From positions 1 through 64,000 of the IMG/VR virus record IMGVR_UViG_3300021356_000009: a stretch of 64,000 nucleotides of DNA; one strand, written 5' to 3'. Numbering within the stretch: position 1 is the stretch's first letter; each line of letters starts with the position of its first letter. The notes beneath the pieces were generated by a model. That model searched no databases, was not told the DNA's origin, and saw only the letters and a list, made by a program, of their open reading frames with translations. Made by a program: the position numbers and the translations under genes. Shown one piece after another: positions 38,354 through 46,600 of this stretch. This DNA comes from a virus.

Positions 38354-39412
38354 TTAATCATTATACACTAGTTTTTTATGAAAAAAGTCATTTATTCTTT
38401 GTTGCTCTACACCTTTTGAGCATGATTGTAAGCAACGATAGCATACATTTTCTTTACTTGTAAAACTTTTTGGCAAATAATTTACAAAAAAATCATGTTC
38501 TAATAAGTTTTTAAAATTATTTGTTTGCAGATCATTAAAATTCTTTCCGTAAAGTTTTTCTATATTTTTCCACCATTCTAAAAAATTAGATCTCTTTGCA
38601 ACATAATGGGAATGAAAATAACAACAAGGCCATAATTTTCCTACTTCGTCGATATACAAATACCCGTCTGCTACAGTTCTACAATTGATTTCTTGTAAAG
38701 CATATGTTTGTTTTTGATATTGATTTATTTTTGTTTTATCTGCTGTAGTAGCAGGAGCAAGATTTACAATGTTTTTTGATTTATTAATTTTATTTTTATA
38801 TGCTGTTGGAAGAACTTTTACATCTGGTAATACCCATCTTGTACTCGCTATACTTTCAAATTTTTTAAATCCTAAACTATTAGCTAATATTTCAGCTTCC
38901 TTAACTTGATGTTCATTGTGTTTAAATTTAATAAATTTCCAAGTTGCAAAACCTCCAGCTTTTATAAAAACTTTTGCATTACTTATAATTTTATCATAAT
39001 CTGTGTTTATCCTATATAAATGATTTGTGTCATCTAACCCATCTATACTAAATGTTACATTTATGTTTTTGTGTTTTCCTATGTTGTGCCAAAATTCATA
39101 ATTTTTTGCACTACCGTTTGTGTGTATGTTTACTTCTTTGTATTTTTTTGCTGCAAATATAATAATTCTTTCTGCATCAGGATGAGCAATTATATCTCCT
39201 ACAGTGCCGCAAAAATCTGCACTAATATGTGTTGTATGATTTAATAATTGTTCGCTTATAGATACAAATTTTTCGTAACTTAGATTTTTTAATTCTATAT
39301 TGTCACTAAGTTTACTTGTGCCATAATTATGTCTGGCACACAGCGGACAACCTGCATTACAATAGCTAGTTATTCCAAACTCAATCTGTGTTATATTGTC
39401 TAATGAAATCAT
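38354..39412 (-). CDS. Radical SAM enzyme with SPASM-like C-terminus (352 aa)
   Basis: The CxxxCxxC cluster motif is in 'SYCNAGCPLCARHNYG' (Cys at ~residues 18, 22 and 25), followed by radical-SAM features 'VNIHTNGSAKN' and 'NVTFSIDGLDDTNHLYR'. The C-terminal part has further cysteines ('INCRTVADGYLYIDEVG', 'LWPCCYF', 'CYRCLQSC'), as in SPASM/twitch enzymes that modify peptides. The DNA is notably AT-rich (many Lys, Asn, Ile). It overlaps the upstream Rossmann-like gene by 32 bases and has no clear Shine-Dalgarno, so translation is probably coupled. Its location between portal and prohead core genes is odd for an enzyme. Substrate unknown; modification of a virion protein or small peptide is speculation. 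Confidence 0.85.
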   Translation of the reverse strand: MISLDNITQIEFGITSYCNAGCPLCARHNYGTSKLSDNIELKNLSYEKFVSISEQLLNHTTHISADFCGTVGDIIAHPDAERIIIFAAKKYKEVNIHTNGSAKNYEFWHNIGKHKNINVTFSIDGLDDTNHLYRINTDYDKIISNAKVFIKAGGFATWKFIKFKHNEHQVKEAEILANSLGFKKFESIASTRWVLPDVKVLPTAYKNKINKSKNIVNLAPATTADKTKINQYQKQTYALQEINCRTVADGYLYIDEVGKLWPCCYFHSHYVAKRSNFLEWWKNIEKLYGKNFNDLQTNNFKNLLEHDFFVNYLPKSFTSKENVCYRCLQSCSKGVEQQRINDFFHKKLVYND

Positions 39413-41975: not shown

Positions 41976-44900
41976 TTATAGACCCCTTTGAAGATCACCA
42001 TTTTTAAGAGCTTTTGCACTATCTTTATGATAATCTCTACTTTCTTGTAATACTGTTAATATGCTTCTCAATGTAGTATTTAACCGATCTGCTGTTTCTG
42101 AGCTCATTCCTGAACCACCACTGTTACCTATAACATCTGCTGCTGCAACACCAGTTCCGCCTCCAAGCACTCCTTTGTTATCTTCTGACAATACATCATT
42201 TAAGTCACCTAAAACATCAACTAAACGTTCCATCGCTGTAGCATAATTGTTTAAGTTTTCAGCATTAAGACTATTTAATAATGATAACTTTGACTCAAAG
42301 CCTGTTACATCACCAACAGCTTGCATTCCAACTGCAACATCGTTAAACTTAGCTGCGGAATTTAAAATTAAATCTAATTGTTCACTAGCACTATCACTGC
42401 CAAAAATAGATGAAAAAATACTAGTATCCTGAGTAGTTCCGCTTAATTCAGCTGCTTTGTCTTGTAACCTTTTTAGTCCGTCTAAGAATGGAATAACTGT
42501 ATTATCAATTACCTGTTCCATTCCGTCTAAGCCGCCTGACTTGTCGGTTCCTTCCGTAAAATCATTCCAGAACTGCGGCATTAATGTTTTCATTATTTCC
42601 CCAGCTTCGAATGCTATATTGTCTAATGATTTTAAATCAAGATTACCGCCAATTGAAACATTTGAAAGAGCAGACATTGCTTCTGTAAATGCAATAACTC
42701 CTTCAGCAGCAGTTTTTACACCAACTACATCAATTGTATGTTTTGCAAATTCTTGTATGTCTTTAAAAGGAATCGGATCTTTTTCAGCACCAAAGAAACC
42801 TAATACTGCATCAGCAACTGCTCCTACAACAGACCCTGCTCCTGATTTAGCAGAAGCAACGCCTGCTGCACCCATTGCATTACTAAATGCTACTAAAGCT
42901 TCTGCATTTGCTTTTACCTTTGTTGCATCAACTGTATACGAAGCAAATTTTACAACATCTTCCATTGGGTTAGATTTTTCACCAAACAATGAAGCTAAGC
43001 CGCCAGCAATACCACTTACTAATGAATTTAATCCTGCTGTTTTTTGATCTCCTGATGAAGCAGCCATTGCAGATTGGAATGCAATTAAAGCTTCTGAATT
43101 AGATTTTACTCTAGCTACATCAACATCGTACCCGGCAAAGCGTACAAGTTTATCGATAGGATCTTCACCGCCAAATAATTTACCAAGACCTTCAGTAATA
43201 CCTCCTATCATAGAGCCTATGCCACTAGCAGCCGTCCCGGCTGCACTAGCTGCCATTGCATCGCTAAATGCTACCATCGCTTCTGCATTTGATTTTACTT
43301 TTGGTGCGTCAATATCTGCTTGACTAAATCTTACAAGTTTATCGATAGGATCTTCTGCACCAAATAACTTGCCTATTCCTTCAGTGATACCTCCTATCAT
43401 TGATCCTAAACCAGCAACTGCTGTTCCTGCACCAAATGCAGCCATTGCTAGGCTAAGATCTATCATTCCACTGGCTGCTGCACTTAATGCTGCTCCGTCT
43501 AATTCTTCAAATGATTTTAATCCCTCAGTAAAGGTAGGAAGTGCTTTACCAGTTAACCAAGCAGCGGCTGCTATACCCGCACCTATTACAGTTATTGTTC
43601 CTGCAAGTATAGTTGCACCTACAAGTACTTGAGGATTTGCAAATGCTTTTAAGCCGGCAGCAGCACCTTTCATAACACCTGCACCCATTTGTCCTACAAA
43701 GTTACCTATACCCTTACCTGCATTTCCTGCCATTTTAGCTGCACCAGCACCTGATTTACCACCCCCTTTAGATGTAGGTGCAGTAGGCGATGCTCCGCCG
43801 CCGCCAAATAGTTTTCCTGCAACACCCGAAACAGTATTTGTAATAGTAGATTTAAATGCGCCTGCTAAAGCACCTACAACTGCTTTTGCTGCAAACAGTG
43901 CTGCTATACCTCCAACAACTGCTGCGATTGTTCCCGGATTTTCAAATATAGCTTTTACACCGTCTAATAGAACTCCGCCTAAAGCACTAAAAATTTCACC
44001 ATCTGCAAGTTTTTGGGCAAAGTTTCCTAGATAATCAATTACATTTACTAGTATATCCCCGAACTTTACAAGGGCTGTGCCTATAGCATCTGCAAGTCCG
44101 CTACGAATAAATGCATCTTCTAGCTTAGTTCTTACATTTAATAGATTTTGACTAAACTCTGAAAGACCTTTTGTAACGTCACTTCTTTTTTGTTGTTCTA
44201 CTTGAGCTGCATTTGCATCTGCAAGACGTTGAGTATATGTTCTTGCTTTAGCAACACTATCCATAAACTCACTAAATCCTGCTTGTCCTTGTAATTGCTG
44301 AACACCTGCTGCACCTAGATTATCTGCAAAGGCAACAATCTGAGGGGCTAGAGCTTTTAGTCTACGTTGATATTCTTCTTGGCTTATTTCGCCTCTTGCA
44401 TTTGCTTCTGCAAGGTCGCTTAATCCTGGAACAACTGCTGCTAGTCGTCTACCAAAATCACTTTGTGCTACACCATCGCCTAGATCGGTCATTACATCTG
44501 CCATACCTTGGCCAAGCATACTAGATGTATGCTGTGTGTTAAGTGTAAAGTTTTCAAGAGCATCGCCTTGAAGCCGGGCAGCTAAAACGTTAAAGTTTGC
44601 TGCTTGCATACGCCCATTAATTTCTTCTTGAATTTGTTTACGACTTTGACCAGTAACTTTTGCTAGTCTATCAACTTCTGTAAGATAATTTTGAGCGCCT
44701 GCTATAAGCTCTCTATCTGACTGTCCTCTTAATTTTCCTGACATTGCTTGCAAATTAATAAAACTTGCAAAGCCTTCGTTTACACCTTCTATTGTAAAGC
44801 CCATAGACAATAAGCCATTTTCTTGACTTCGTAGTGTCTTAGATAGTTTACCAAATCTTGCTGCACCATCACTTGTTGTTGCACCTAAAAGACCCATACT

Positions 44901-45443
44901 AGATGCATTTGTTGCAACAATTTCAGCAAACTGTTCTAAACTTAATCCAGATTGTGCTGCTGCTTGACGCATTGCAAGCATATTATTTCCAAACGCCGCA
45001 CCAGAATCTGATAATTGTCTAAATGTATCTAAACTTGATTGGAAATAATCATTCAGAACTCCTAAACTTCCTCCTATTAACGGAATGTGTTGTGTAAAGT
45101 CTGTAAGTTCTGTACTGCCTCTTAGTAGTTCTTTACCGAAATTAGTTGCTGTGCCTGCTGCAAATCCTAACACTTTACCAAAATTTTCAAGCGTAAATGC
45201 TTTTTTAAGAGTATTTCCAACATCTTCCATTATTGTAGTTGTTTTTTCAATTTCATCTGAAAATGATGTAAATTGCTCTTTGGTCTTTTTTGCTTGTTTG
45301 CTTAAATCTTCTAAATTCTTTTTACCTTTAGCATCTAATCCTTTGGTTTTTTCTAGAGCAGAAACAAGGCGTTGCAGTGTTACTTCACTAGCAACGCCAT
45401 CTTTACCAACGTTGGATATAATTACTTCGTCTTGATCAGCCAT
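41976..45443 (-). CDS. Tape-measure-like tail protein (1155 aa)
   Basis: Long, mostly helical protein with an N-terminal coiled coil (~residues 20-75, KGKKNLEDLSKQAKKTKEQF), an Ala-rich helical body ('RQAAAQSGLSLEQFAEIVAT'), a hydrophobic block at ~510-535 ('GTIAAVVGGIAALFAAKAVV') and another at ~610-635. Four ~63-residue repeats with 'DPIDKLVRF...VKSNAEAMVAFSDAM' cover ~660-930. Such size, hydrophobic segments and repeats are typical of tail-length tape measures. The divergent neighbour is a gp26-like frameshifting gene, the usual partner of a tape measure. T4 gp29 similarity is not obvious, so the assignment rests on architecture and context. Confidence 0.7.
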   Translation of the reverse strand: MADQDEVIISNVGKDGVASEVTLQRLVSALEKTKGLDAKGKKNLEDLSKQAKKTKEQFTSFSDEIEKTTTIMEDVGNTLKKAFTLENFGKVLGFAAGTATNFGKELLRGSTELTDFTQHIPLIGGSLGVLNDYFQSSLDTFRQLSDSGAAFGNNMLAMRQAAAQSGLSLEQFAEIVATNASSMGLLGATTSDGAARFGKLSKTLRSQENGLLSMGFTIEGVNEGFASFINLQAMSGKLRGQSDRELIAGAQNYLTEVDRLAKVTGQSRKQIQEEINGRMQAANFNVLAARLQGDALENFTLNTQHTSSMLGQGMADVMTDLGDGVAQSDFGRRLAAVVPGLSDLAEANARGEISQEEYQRRLKALAPQIVAFADNLGAAGVQQLQGQAGFSEFMDSVAKARTYTQRLADANAAQVEQQKRSDVTKGLSEFSQNLLNVRTKLEDAFIRSGLADAIGTALVKFGDILVNVIDYLGNFAQKLADGEIFSALGGVLLDGVKAIFENPGTIAAVVGGIAALFAAKAVVGALAGAFKSTITNTVSGVAGKLFGGGGASPTAPTSKGGGKSGAGAAKMAGNAGKGIGNFVGQMGAGVMKGAAAGLKAFANPQVLVGATILAGTITVIGAGIAAAAWLTGKALPTFTEGLKSFEELDGAALSAAASGMIDLSLAMAAFGAGTAVAGLGSMIGGITEGIGKLFGAEDPIDKLVRFSQADIDAPKVKSNAEAMVAFSDAMAASAAGTAASGIGSMIGGITEGLGKLFGGEDPIDKLVRFAGYDVDVARVKSNSEALIAFQSAMAASSGDQKTAGLNSLVSGIAGGLASLFGEKSNPMEDVVKFASYTVDATKVKANAEALVAFSNAMGAAGVASAKSGAGSVVGAVADAVLGFFGAEKDPIPFKDIQEFAKHTIDVVGVKTAAEGVIAFTEAMSALSNVSIGGNLDLKSLDNIAFEAGEIMKTLMPQFWNDFTEGTDKSGGLDGMEQVIDNTVIPFLDGLKRLQDKAAELSGTTQDTSIFSSIFGSDSASEQLDLILNSAAKFNDVAVGMQAVGDVTGFESKLSLLNSLNAENLNNYATAMERLVDVLGDLNDVLSEDNKGVLGGGTGVAAADVIGNSGGSGMSSETADRLNTTLRSILTVLQESRDYHKDSAKALKNGDLQRGL
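42660..43470 (-). repeat. ~189-bp repeats inside the tape-measure-like gene
   Basis: Four imperfect units, spaced about 189 bp, encode 'GGITEGLGKLFGGEDPIDKL' followed by 'V[KA]..V[DK]...VK[SA]N[AS]EA'. The first two units (43142-43217 and 43331-43407) are very similar at DNA level; the others are more diverged. Confidence 0.8.
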
Positions 45444-45469: not shown

Positions 45470-45477
45470 TATAAATA
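45470..45477 (+). promoter_or_regulatory. Late promoter TATAAATA for the gp26-like gene
   Basis: Perfect TATAAATA on the plus strand, 45 bases before the GTG start of the gp26-like gene. The expected start near 45483 gives a leader of about 40 nt. It faces the minus-strand promoter at 45502-45509. Confidence 0.75.
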
Positions 45478-45501: not shown

Positions 45502-45509
45502 TATTTATG
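45502..45509 (-). promoter_or_regulatory. Late promoter CATAAATA(C) for the tape-measure gene
   Basis: CATAAATACATTATAC on the minus strand, ~59 bases before the tape-measure start; almost the same 16 bases as at 2300-2285. Its expected start near 45496 lies inside the leader of the opposite transcript, so both 5' ends would be complementary over ~13 bases. Confidence 0.7.
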
Positions 45510-45521
45510 CGGAGTAAAAAG

Positions 45522-46385
45522 GTGGAAAATACAAATCAAAATCCTTTAGGCAAGTACTTTAGACAGCCTAAAATATATATCAAGCTACCAAGTGGTGGAA
45601 GATTCTATCCTGACGGAGCTCTTGAAGTTACAGATACTGGAGAATACCCTGTATTTGCAATGACTGCAAAAGATGAACTGTCAATGAAAACACCAGATGC
45701 TTTGCTTAACGGTCAGGCTACAGTTGATGTAATACAAAGTTGTGTGCCGAATATTAGAAATGCATGGATGATGCCTAGTATCGACTTAGATTCAGTCCTT
45801 ACTGCAATTAGAATTGCAACTTACGGTGAAACAATGGATCTTACAATAACTGTTCCTAATACAGAAATGGAAACAACTTATCAAGTTGATTTGCGTCAAG
45901 TAATGGATACTTTTAATGGTATAGATTACGATTCTACAGTACATATTAATGATATGTCTATACATATCAAACCGTTAACCTATCAACAGTTTACACAAAA
46001 TGCAATTAAATCATTTGAAGAACAAAGAGTGTTTGCTATTGTTAACGATGAAACTATGTCTGATGAAAAGAAAATTGAAATGTTTTCTAAAAGTTTCCAA
46101 AAACTTACAGCTTTAACTGTAAATGTTGTTGCTCAAAGTATAGAAAAAATTCAAGTTGAAGAACAAACTGTTGTAAATCCTATGCATATCATGGAATTTA
46201 TAAACAATGCTGATAAAAAATTCTATAATGCAATAATGGATCATATGGAACTTCAAAAATCTAAATTTGAACTTAAACCTATGACTATAGAAGCAACAGA
46301 TGAGCAAATATCTGCAGGAGCACCTAAAACTTTTGATGTTCCTATTGTGTTGGATGCAGCAAATTTTTTCGTATCAGGATCTTAA
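45522..46385 (+). CDS. 26: gp26-like baseplate hub / tail-assembly protein, zero-frame product (287 aa)
   Basis: Conserved N-terminal region 'GKYFRQPKIYIKLPSGGRFY', 'FAMTAKDELSMKTPDALLNG', 'MPSIDLDSVLTAIRIATYGE' matches the T4 gp26-type base plate protein family of T4-like phages. T4 gp26 (208 residues) is needed for hub assembly. The start is taken as GTG at 45522 with GGAG 7 nt upstream; an in-frame ATG at 45507 would sit before that Shine-Dalgarno and lacks its own. Longer upstream extension would run into the oppositely oriented tape-measure gene and past the promoter. The 3' end overlaps the -1 frame, which continues open to 46600, and carries a slippery heptamer. Confidence 0.85.
   Translation: MENTNQNPLGKYFRQPKIYIKLPSGGRFYPDGALEVTDTGEYPVFAMTAKDELSMKTPDALLNGQATVDVIQSCVPNIRNAWMMPSIDLDSVLTAIRIATYGETMDLTITVPNTEMETTYQVDLRQVMDTFNGIDYDSTVHINDMSIHIKPLTYQQFTQNAIKSFEEQRVFAIVNDETMSDEKKIEMFSKSFQKLTALTVNVVAQSIEKIQVEEQTVVNPMHIMEFINNADKKFYNAIMDHMELQKSKFELKPMTIEATDEQISAGAPKTFDVPIVLDAANFFVSGS
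46364..46370 (+). promoter_or_regulatory. Candidate -1 ribosomal frameshift site T TTT TTC
   Basis: In the gp26-like frame the heptamer reads T TTT TTC (Phe-Phe). A -1 slip re-pairs both tRNA-Phe perfectly in the P site and acceptably (TTT for TTC) in the A site. It is directly preceded by A AAT TTT, also of X XXY YYZ type. The -1 frame is open from 46337 and the zero frame stops at 46385, so any slip must fall in this 46-base window. A weak CAGG/CCTG stem starts 5 bases downstream and a perfect 7-bp hairpin lies at 46405-46421. Confidence 0.7.
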
Positions 46386-46600
46386 CCTGGCCGGTTGACC
46401 GTATCCTTAACGAAGTTAAGGAAATGGAAAATCAAGTAAAGAACATTAAGTTAGAAACTTTTAGACTTGCTTGGCTAATGCGTGGAGGCATGACACTAGA
46501 TGAAGCGTTTGCGTTAGGGTCCGAAGAAAGAGATATAGTGTCAACACTAGTTAAAGAAAATTTTGAAATAACTAAAAAAACGCAAATGCCTTACTTTTAA
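46370..46600 (+). CDS. -1 frame extension of gp26-like protein (76 aa; T-like tail chaperone part)
   Basis: After a -1 slip the frame continues RIRILTWPVDRILNEVKEME, then 'KLETFRLAWLMRGGMTLDEA' and 'VKENFEITKKTQMPYF'. The RGG..LDEA..L..EER and ENxExTKKxxxPxF pattern resembles C-terminal parts of phage tail-assembly chaperones. Fusion length would be 359 residues. Separate initiation at the ATG at 46424 would give 58 residues, but its only Shine-Dalgarno-like AAGG is 2-3 nt away and locked in a hairpin. T4 gene 51, also needed for hub assembly, follows gene 26; equivalence is a guess. The stop overlaps the stop of the convergent gene by three bases. Confidence 0.7.
   Translation, partial: RIRILTWPVDRILNEVKEMENQVKNIKLETFRLAWLMRGGMTLDEAFALGSEERDIVSTLVKENFEITKKTQMPYF
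46405..46421 (+). other. Hairpin downstream of the frameshift site
   Basis: CCTTAAC-GAA-GTTAAGG: perfect 7-bp stem with a GAA loop, 35 bases after the slippery heptamer and covering the AAGG just before the internal ATG. Its 3' arm could instead pair with CTTAAC at 46381-46386, giving an alternative, closer structure. Confidence 0.55.

Follow-up and report, generated by a model that had tools for sequence, protein, structure and literature searches.

A gp26-like gene of an uncultured T4-like phage probably encodes two tail assembly chaperones through a -1 frameshift at T TTT TTC

Introduction

Tail assembly chaperones of the lambda G/GT type are reportedly described by Xu et al. 2004, and the lambda G/GT heptamer is G GGA AAG. 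For the T4-like phages, the abstract of Vladimirov et al. 2022 is said to treat genes 26 and 51 and to report frameshifting in several T4-like groups.

The latter work (Vladimirov, Gautam & Davidson 2022) is cited for the tail assembly chaperones of T4-like phages in excerpts of the PRFect paper (PMC10885494), which also deals with 28 phages with G/GT-type chaperones, and again in excerpts of the Adele paper (PMC12846349), where a poly-T slip is reported for T4-like TAC-N genes. According to the same excerpts, some T4-like phages possess separate short and long genes (PMC10885494, PMC12846349), and the same frameshift logic has been published for other phage families (PMC12846349). A T4 review, likewise used in excerpt, lists gp26 and gp51 in its Table 2 as hub assembly chaperones and states that gp51 is absent from the final particle (PMC3004832).

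Here, we describe a gp26-like gene that very probably makes two tail assembly chaperones off one late mRNA by a predicted -1 slip at T TTT TTC. An initial annotation of the locus had proposed that T4-like phages carry the lambda-like chaperone device within the gp26 family. This is supported here, but the idea of a chaperone frameshift in T4-like phages is, going by the excerpts above, not new and already in print (Vladimirov 2022), and T4 itself appears to lack the device. The listings from our literature searches contained no paper evidently about the present clade, which adds a well-supported case.

The locus shares with the gp26 (TAC-N)/gp51 (TAC-NC) system of T4-like phages the PF12322/phrog_150 family and the combination of a short form with a predicted long form bearing a C-terminal extension; as in the groups that frameshift, the extension follows a slippery site and is encoded in the -1 frame. 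T4, 44RR and RB43 use two genes, whereas this clade has one gene plus a -1 extension. The clade is uncultured, its gp26 comprises 278-289 aa (IMG/VR loci) compared to 208 aa in T4, and its extension exceeds that of cyanophages by about 16 aa (78 versus 62 from the slip). The likeness to lambda G/GT is one of arrangement: a frameshift late in the first ORF would add a C-terminal domain, and a putative tape measure gene is nearby. In contrast to lambda, the heptamer is T TTT TTC instead of G GGA AAG, and the adjacent gene, whose tape measure assignment we infer, is divergent. The chaperones of the Vandenendeviridae and Andersonviridae, as excerpted, likewise keep the -1 frame open in every allele and have a T-rich slip motif that does not vary, but they belong to different phage families and use a different motif, GTTTTT (PMC12846349).

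Results

The gp26-like gene and its two likely products

The DNA analysed is a stretch of 64,000 nucleotides (hereafter, the window), taken from a virus record of 81,925 bases. It carries T4-like phage genes for portal, head protease, major head protein and late sigma factor, and SbcC/SbcD-like subunits and a hub/lysozyme gene are also recognisable; its source is a T4-like phage. The family phrog_150 occurs at a single place in the whole record, which is probably a fragment. The features of this locus are:

41976 to 45443, - strand: tape-measure-like gene, divergent and adjoining, 1155 aa, phrog_14121
45470 to 45477, + strand: TATAAATA, -10 element of a T4-type late promoter, 52 nt 5' of the gene
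45511 to 45514, + strand: Shine-Dalgarno-like GGAG ahead of the GTG start, read from the sequence itself
45522 to 46385, + strand: gp26-like gene encoding the 287-aa short form (TAC-N), GTG start, TAA stop
46364 to 46370, + strand: slippery heptamer T TTT TTC, in phase; found in 92 of 92 loci whose stop is readable
46370 to 46600, + strand: extension in the -1 frame, 76 codons past the slip, with its stop at 46598-46600 and a helical AlphaFold2 model
46376 to 46435, + strand: RNA hairpin-forming region, probable stimulator, starting 5 nt past the heptamer

The 45522-46385 product matched T4_baseplate (PF12322; E 1.3e-10) among the Pfam profiles and the baseplate hub family phrog_150 (E 1.5e-15) in PHROGs. 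The final codons of its gene read GCA AAT TTT TTC GTA TCA GGA TCT TAA, and the -1 frame has no stop from 46337 until 46600, so that the end of the gp26-like frame at 46385 and the extent of the open -1 frame were both as initially annotated. Joining frame-0 codons 1-283 to the 76 codons of the extension gives a long form (TAC-NC) of 359 aa. The likely products are hence a 287-aa short gp26-like chaperone and a slipped, gp51-like long form.

AlphaFold2, run on the clade's own alignments, predicted an alpha/beta fold for gp26 (pLDDT 85) and a helical extension (pLDDT 85). Neither the profile nor the model of gp26 gave a significant fold match among solved structures (PDB), and the extension model gave nothing significant among viral folds (best E 0.014). 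In BFVD, the gp26 model showed fold matches with E 5e-6 to 7e-4, a query-based TM of about 0.46-0.54 and an rmsd of 7.8-9.5. The matched proteins are uncharacterised, measure about 500-690 aa and come from other large phages, namely Ralstonia phages RSF1 and RP12 and Erwinia phages phiEaH2 and Special G; judged by these models, they are chaperone candidates there. In Ea35-70, presumably a relative of Special G, a phrog_150 match was not found.

The mechanism that we propose builds on four features read from the sequences, namely a conserved slippery site, a conserved -1 coding frame, RNA structure and a late-promoter element. Most ribosomes would terminate at 46385 and release the short gp26-like protein. 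A minority would be made to pause on T TTT TTC by RNA structure starting about 5 nt downstream and would slip one base back, both Phe tRNAs re-pairing on TTT TTT; these ribosomes would read 76 further codons and produce the 359-aa protein with its helical C-terminal domain. Short and long forms would then jointly hold the tape measure protein and help to start hub and tail-tube assembly, a role suggested by analogy with lambda G/GT and T4 gp26/gp51. We infer that slippage occurs, as well as its rate and the binding of the tape measure protein. As slip site and downstream RNA structure are defined, the locus is directly suited to reporter assays.

Alternatively, the frameshift could be real, with products that serve as structural subunits of the baseplate hub and not as tape-measure chaperones. 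Databases label gp26 'baseplate hub', and the T4 review mentions genetic reports of gp26 within the hub (PMC3004832, in excerpt). However, the review itself counts gp26 and gp51 among the hub assembly chaperones, with gp51 missing from the final particle, and later papers, also in excerpt, regard the short and long genes of T4-like phages as coding for tail assembly chaperones (PMC10885494, PMC12846349). On this chaperone listing and the later papers we rejected a purely structural hub role, and we regard this alternative as improbable. A chaperone pair of the G/GT kind, as proposed in the initial annotation, is the best reading by arrangement, although no lambda G/GT family was found among the Pfam and PHROGs matches of the window's products.

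The slippery heptamer is invariant among relatives

Relatives were collected from IMG/VR by a protein search and a profile search, the latter keeping the best 80 of 583 relatives. The search patterns were peptides upstream of the slip site, and the loci were therefore not selected for the heptamer. In total, 93 loci were looked at: the window, L002-L008, five isolate phages (L011-L015; Atu_ph07, Phosso, PA5oct, RaK2 and PBECO4, taken from 61 phage records) and L017-L096. L009 and L010, whose matches were cut short, were left out, and L036 ends before the stop. The 92 readable loci correspond to 91 distinct records, with L017 being the same contig as L006. For most counts, we used 75 representatives that share less than 90% identity; a cutoff of 70% would leave 51.

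The in-phase T TTT TTC that had been pointed out in the window was present in 92 of 92 readable loci, a set drawn largely from the best 80 of the 583 profile relatives. In these loci, the heptamer starts 10-25 nt ahead of the frame-0 stop, which is always present behind it at a variable distance. The base right after the heptamer was G in 98% of the 75 representatives. Elsewhere in the 75 representative gp26 genes, in-phase TTTTTTC occurred at 1 of 20,986 other codon positions. Phe codons outside the site were TTT and TTC in a ratio of 855:171, which gives an expectation for TTT-TTC of about 0.139 (about 14%) per gene; because the loci are akin, this chance estimate is not a formal probability. 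Other Phe-Phe pairs in the same genes used mixed codons (13 TTTTTT, 12 TTCTTT, 2 TTCTTC and 1 TTTTTC).

A second motif, A AAT TTT, overlaps T TTT TTC just upstream in the window, as had been noted, but it is missing in some relatives, and its three A positions are conserved at 88-89% (75 representatives). As it is not invariant, A AAT TTT was set aside as a slip site. A Shine-Dalgarno-like stimulator upstream was found within 20 nt in 0 of 75 representatives. Every sampled locus of this clade, which is uncultured and mostly metagenomic, has a putative frameshift chaperone, as do the jumbo phages that we examined.

RNA structure downstream of the slip site

The 60 nt beginning 5 nt past the heptamer gave a mean z of -1.73 against dinucleotide shuffles (n = 75), compared to -0.24 for random gp26 segments under the same control. 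We also compared the first 54 nt of the region with sequences in which synonymous codons were drawn from those same extensions. Here, the mean z was -2.63 (n = 74; 62% below -2), versus +0.05 for a control segment within the extension. The window's own downstream region reached z -5.27, and some loci showed little structure (L006, z +0.8; L014, z -0.82). Downstream RNA structure exceeds what coding requires, and the potential for hairpins that the initial annotation had noted is real. All parts of a programmed -1 signal are present: an X XXY YYZ heptamer, a short spacer and a downstream structure, the latter without a single consensus fold.

RNAalifold found no consensus hairpin in the downstream region. 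Two helices were named from single-sequence folds and then counted across loci; they consist of two alternative 3' arms and one common 5' arm, AGGATCTTAAC, located 5 nt past the slip. Each helix was paired in about 70% of cells compared to 25-51% when slid by 1-3 columns, and at 36 of 75 loci pairing in one or the other helix was at least 90%. Covariation of both helices was modest and above shuffles; for the 13-22/35-44 helix, a -1 slide scored slightly better on covariation (0.186 versus 0.176). As this support for the helices is modest, it is the shuffle and synonymous-codon tests that carry the RNA claim. A speculative extension, which we consider doubtful, is that the stimulator is a two-state RNA: AGGATCTTAAC might pair with either 3' arm, and the hairpin balance, altered by translation, might set the ratio of short to long form and, with it, when tail assembly takes place.

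The -1 frame evolves as a protein-coding sequence

In the 89 loci not ended by the contig (L039, L040 and L047 end inside the extension and were omitted from this count), the -1 frame runs 64-75 codons beyond the stop, mostly 74, and the +1 frame closes within 3-29 codons. Selection and stop codons were assessed in 70 representatives with an ungapped 78-codon extension. The median pN/pS was 0.41 in the -1 frame (245 pairs) versus 0.96 and 1.43 in the other frames (236 and 255 pairs), and the -1 frame contained 0 stops versus 412 and 506 in the other two. Differences at codon positions 1, 2 and 3 numbered 17,080, 10,188 and 24,277. The R just after the slip was found in 100% of the 70, and W, M, R and G in the middle of the extension were invariant, too. 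Judged by these substitution patterns, the -1 frame evolves as protein, in agreement with the initial reading of its translation.

A conserved coding frame might also be expressed as a separate small protein by termination-reinitiation at the gp26 stop. In some phages, the stop overlaps a start codon (ATGA or TAATG) or is closely followed by an ATG, Phosso, PBECO4 and P-SSM2 annotate the extension as its own CDS, and start codons occur near the stop in part of the loci. Against this, 33 of 74 representatives lack ATG, GTG and TTG over the first 20 -1 codons counted from the slip, and these 33 contain none ahead of the slip either; the window itself has no start codon from the slip until codon 21. 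Residues ahead of any start codon are conserved nonetheless (R3 in 100% and R5 in 85% of the 70), and reinitiation would need neither an invariant T TTT TTC nor a selected structure 5 nt behind it. In view of the lack of start codons in those 33 representatives, the invariant heptamer and the RNA structure, we rejected reinitiation as the sole route and hold it to be highly improbable.

The main alternative named in the initial annotation was an assembly error in the six-T run; such an error, or one of sequencing, at this homopolymer in the junction would hide one continuous frame. This explanation has practically no chance of being correct, since TTTTTTC, the stop and the -1 extension are found together in all 92 readable loci, which derive from many metagenomes and five isolate genomes, and further isolates beyond the 92 loci share the arrangement. 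Comparison of the gp26 loci showed that heptamer and -1 frame are conserved throughout the 92: none had a continuous frame or another T-run length, and the -1 frame was open in each.

Other T4-like phages and the correspondence to T4 gp26 and gp51

In favor of the -1 slip, the same frame relation holds in Atu_ph07, Phosso, PA5oct, RaK2 and PBECO4. Phages beyond the IMG/VR set were of our own choosing, and in the set of eight single-gene phages four came from search hits. A -1 extension together with a heptamer was present in P-SSM2, S-PM2, HTVC008M, phiM12 and KVP40 (5 of 5) and in seven of the eight single-gene phages (DLP6, Aeh1, phiW-14, XacN1, SCTP-2, CM1 and Vibrio 2.275). The heptamer is T TTT TTT in HTVC008M, phiM12, XacN1 and CM1 and T TTT TTC in the others that have one. 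Salmonella phage ViI (L135, NC_015296) has a -1 extension resembling the others and only ATT TTC near the stop, without an X XXY YYZ heptamer.

In T4, 44RR and RB43, a pair of paralogous genes takes the place of the single gene, and neither has a homologous -1 extension; the two RB43 genes carry TTTAAAA and TTTAAAG close to their ends. T4 gp51 spans positions 3-281 of phrog_150 in a single frame and T4 gp26 positions 10-236. The C-terminus of T4 gp51 aligns to the cyanophage extension from the slip on, with 27% identity to P-SSM2. This alignment and the phrog_150 coverage indicate that the slipped long product corresponds to gp51 and the short product to gp26. At the sequence level, the split arrangement in other T4-like phages is the equivalent of the single-frame T4 gp51. 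T4 itself appears to be without a frameshift device; its genes 26 and 51 are paralogs matching the short and the long form. T4 gp26 (L016) also weakly matched the gp28 family phrog_1140 (E 9.4e-4), and gp26, gp51 and gp28 of T4 may all be paralogs.

In the PHROGs search, the window's extension gave no match to phrog_634 (gp51 C-terminus), and the direct profile match between the clade's extension and the gp51 C-terminus was weak (E 0.0036, probability 9%). The clade matched the jumbo-phage set at E 2e-23, aided by a common FFR start, and the jumbo set matched the gp51/cyanophage set at E 4.4e-5 (probability 69%); the likeness between the clade and the gp51 C-terminus is thus seen only via jumbo-phage intermediates.

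Sullivan et al. 2010, as excerpted, describe the 'gp51' of cyanophages and vibriophages as having about 20% of the usual length and lacking the first ~200 residues (PMC3037559). A possible explanation is that, in P-SSM2, S-PM2 and KVP40, the 'missing' gp51 residues are those of the gp26 gene, joined by the slip. The records of Phosso, PBECO4 and P-SSM2 treat the extension as a separate CDS, and those of PA5oct and RaK2 omit it; these five records could be corrected.

Late promoter and neighbouring genes

The TATAAATA element at 45470-45477 is the sole + strand copy in the 64-kb window. Among the representatives, 43 of 75 have TATAAATA at most 130 nt upstream of gp26, compared to 1.6 expected from mononucleotide shuffles. 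In 27 of 75 representatives, the 130 nt ahead of gp26 contain TATAAATA on the minus strand; in the window, a variant T4-type late element, CATAAATA (45502-45509, minus strand), faces the divergent tape-measure-like gene.

The 1155-aa product of this gene matched phrog_14121, 'virion structural protein' (E 1.9e-5), a family which includes RaK2 ORF088, whose record remarks a likeness to a tape measure protein. The initial annotation had placed the gp26-like gene beside a tape-measure-like gene; the two are indeed adjacent, but they are divergent instead of co-transcribed, and the gene is tape-measure-like by look, size and position only. A minus-strand ORF of at least 300 aa starting less than 300 nt from gp26 was found in 64 of 67 testable representatives. 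Two large genes directly follow the gene pair of P-SSM2, and the second of them weakly matches a tape measure (E 0.0021).

Further away in the window, a radical SAM domain protein (38357-39412, minus strand; phrog_21308, E 1.6e-16) is encoded between the head protease and portal genes, and three consecutive very large open frames of 2063, 3564 and 2884 aa occupy 2303-27921 on the minus strand.
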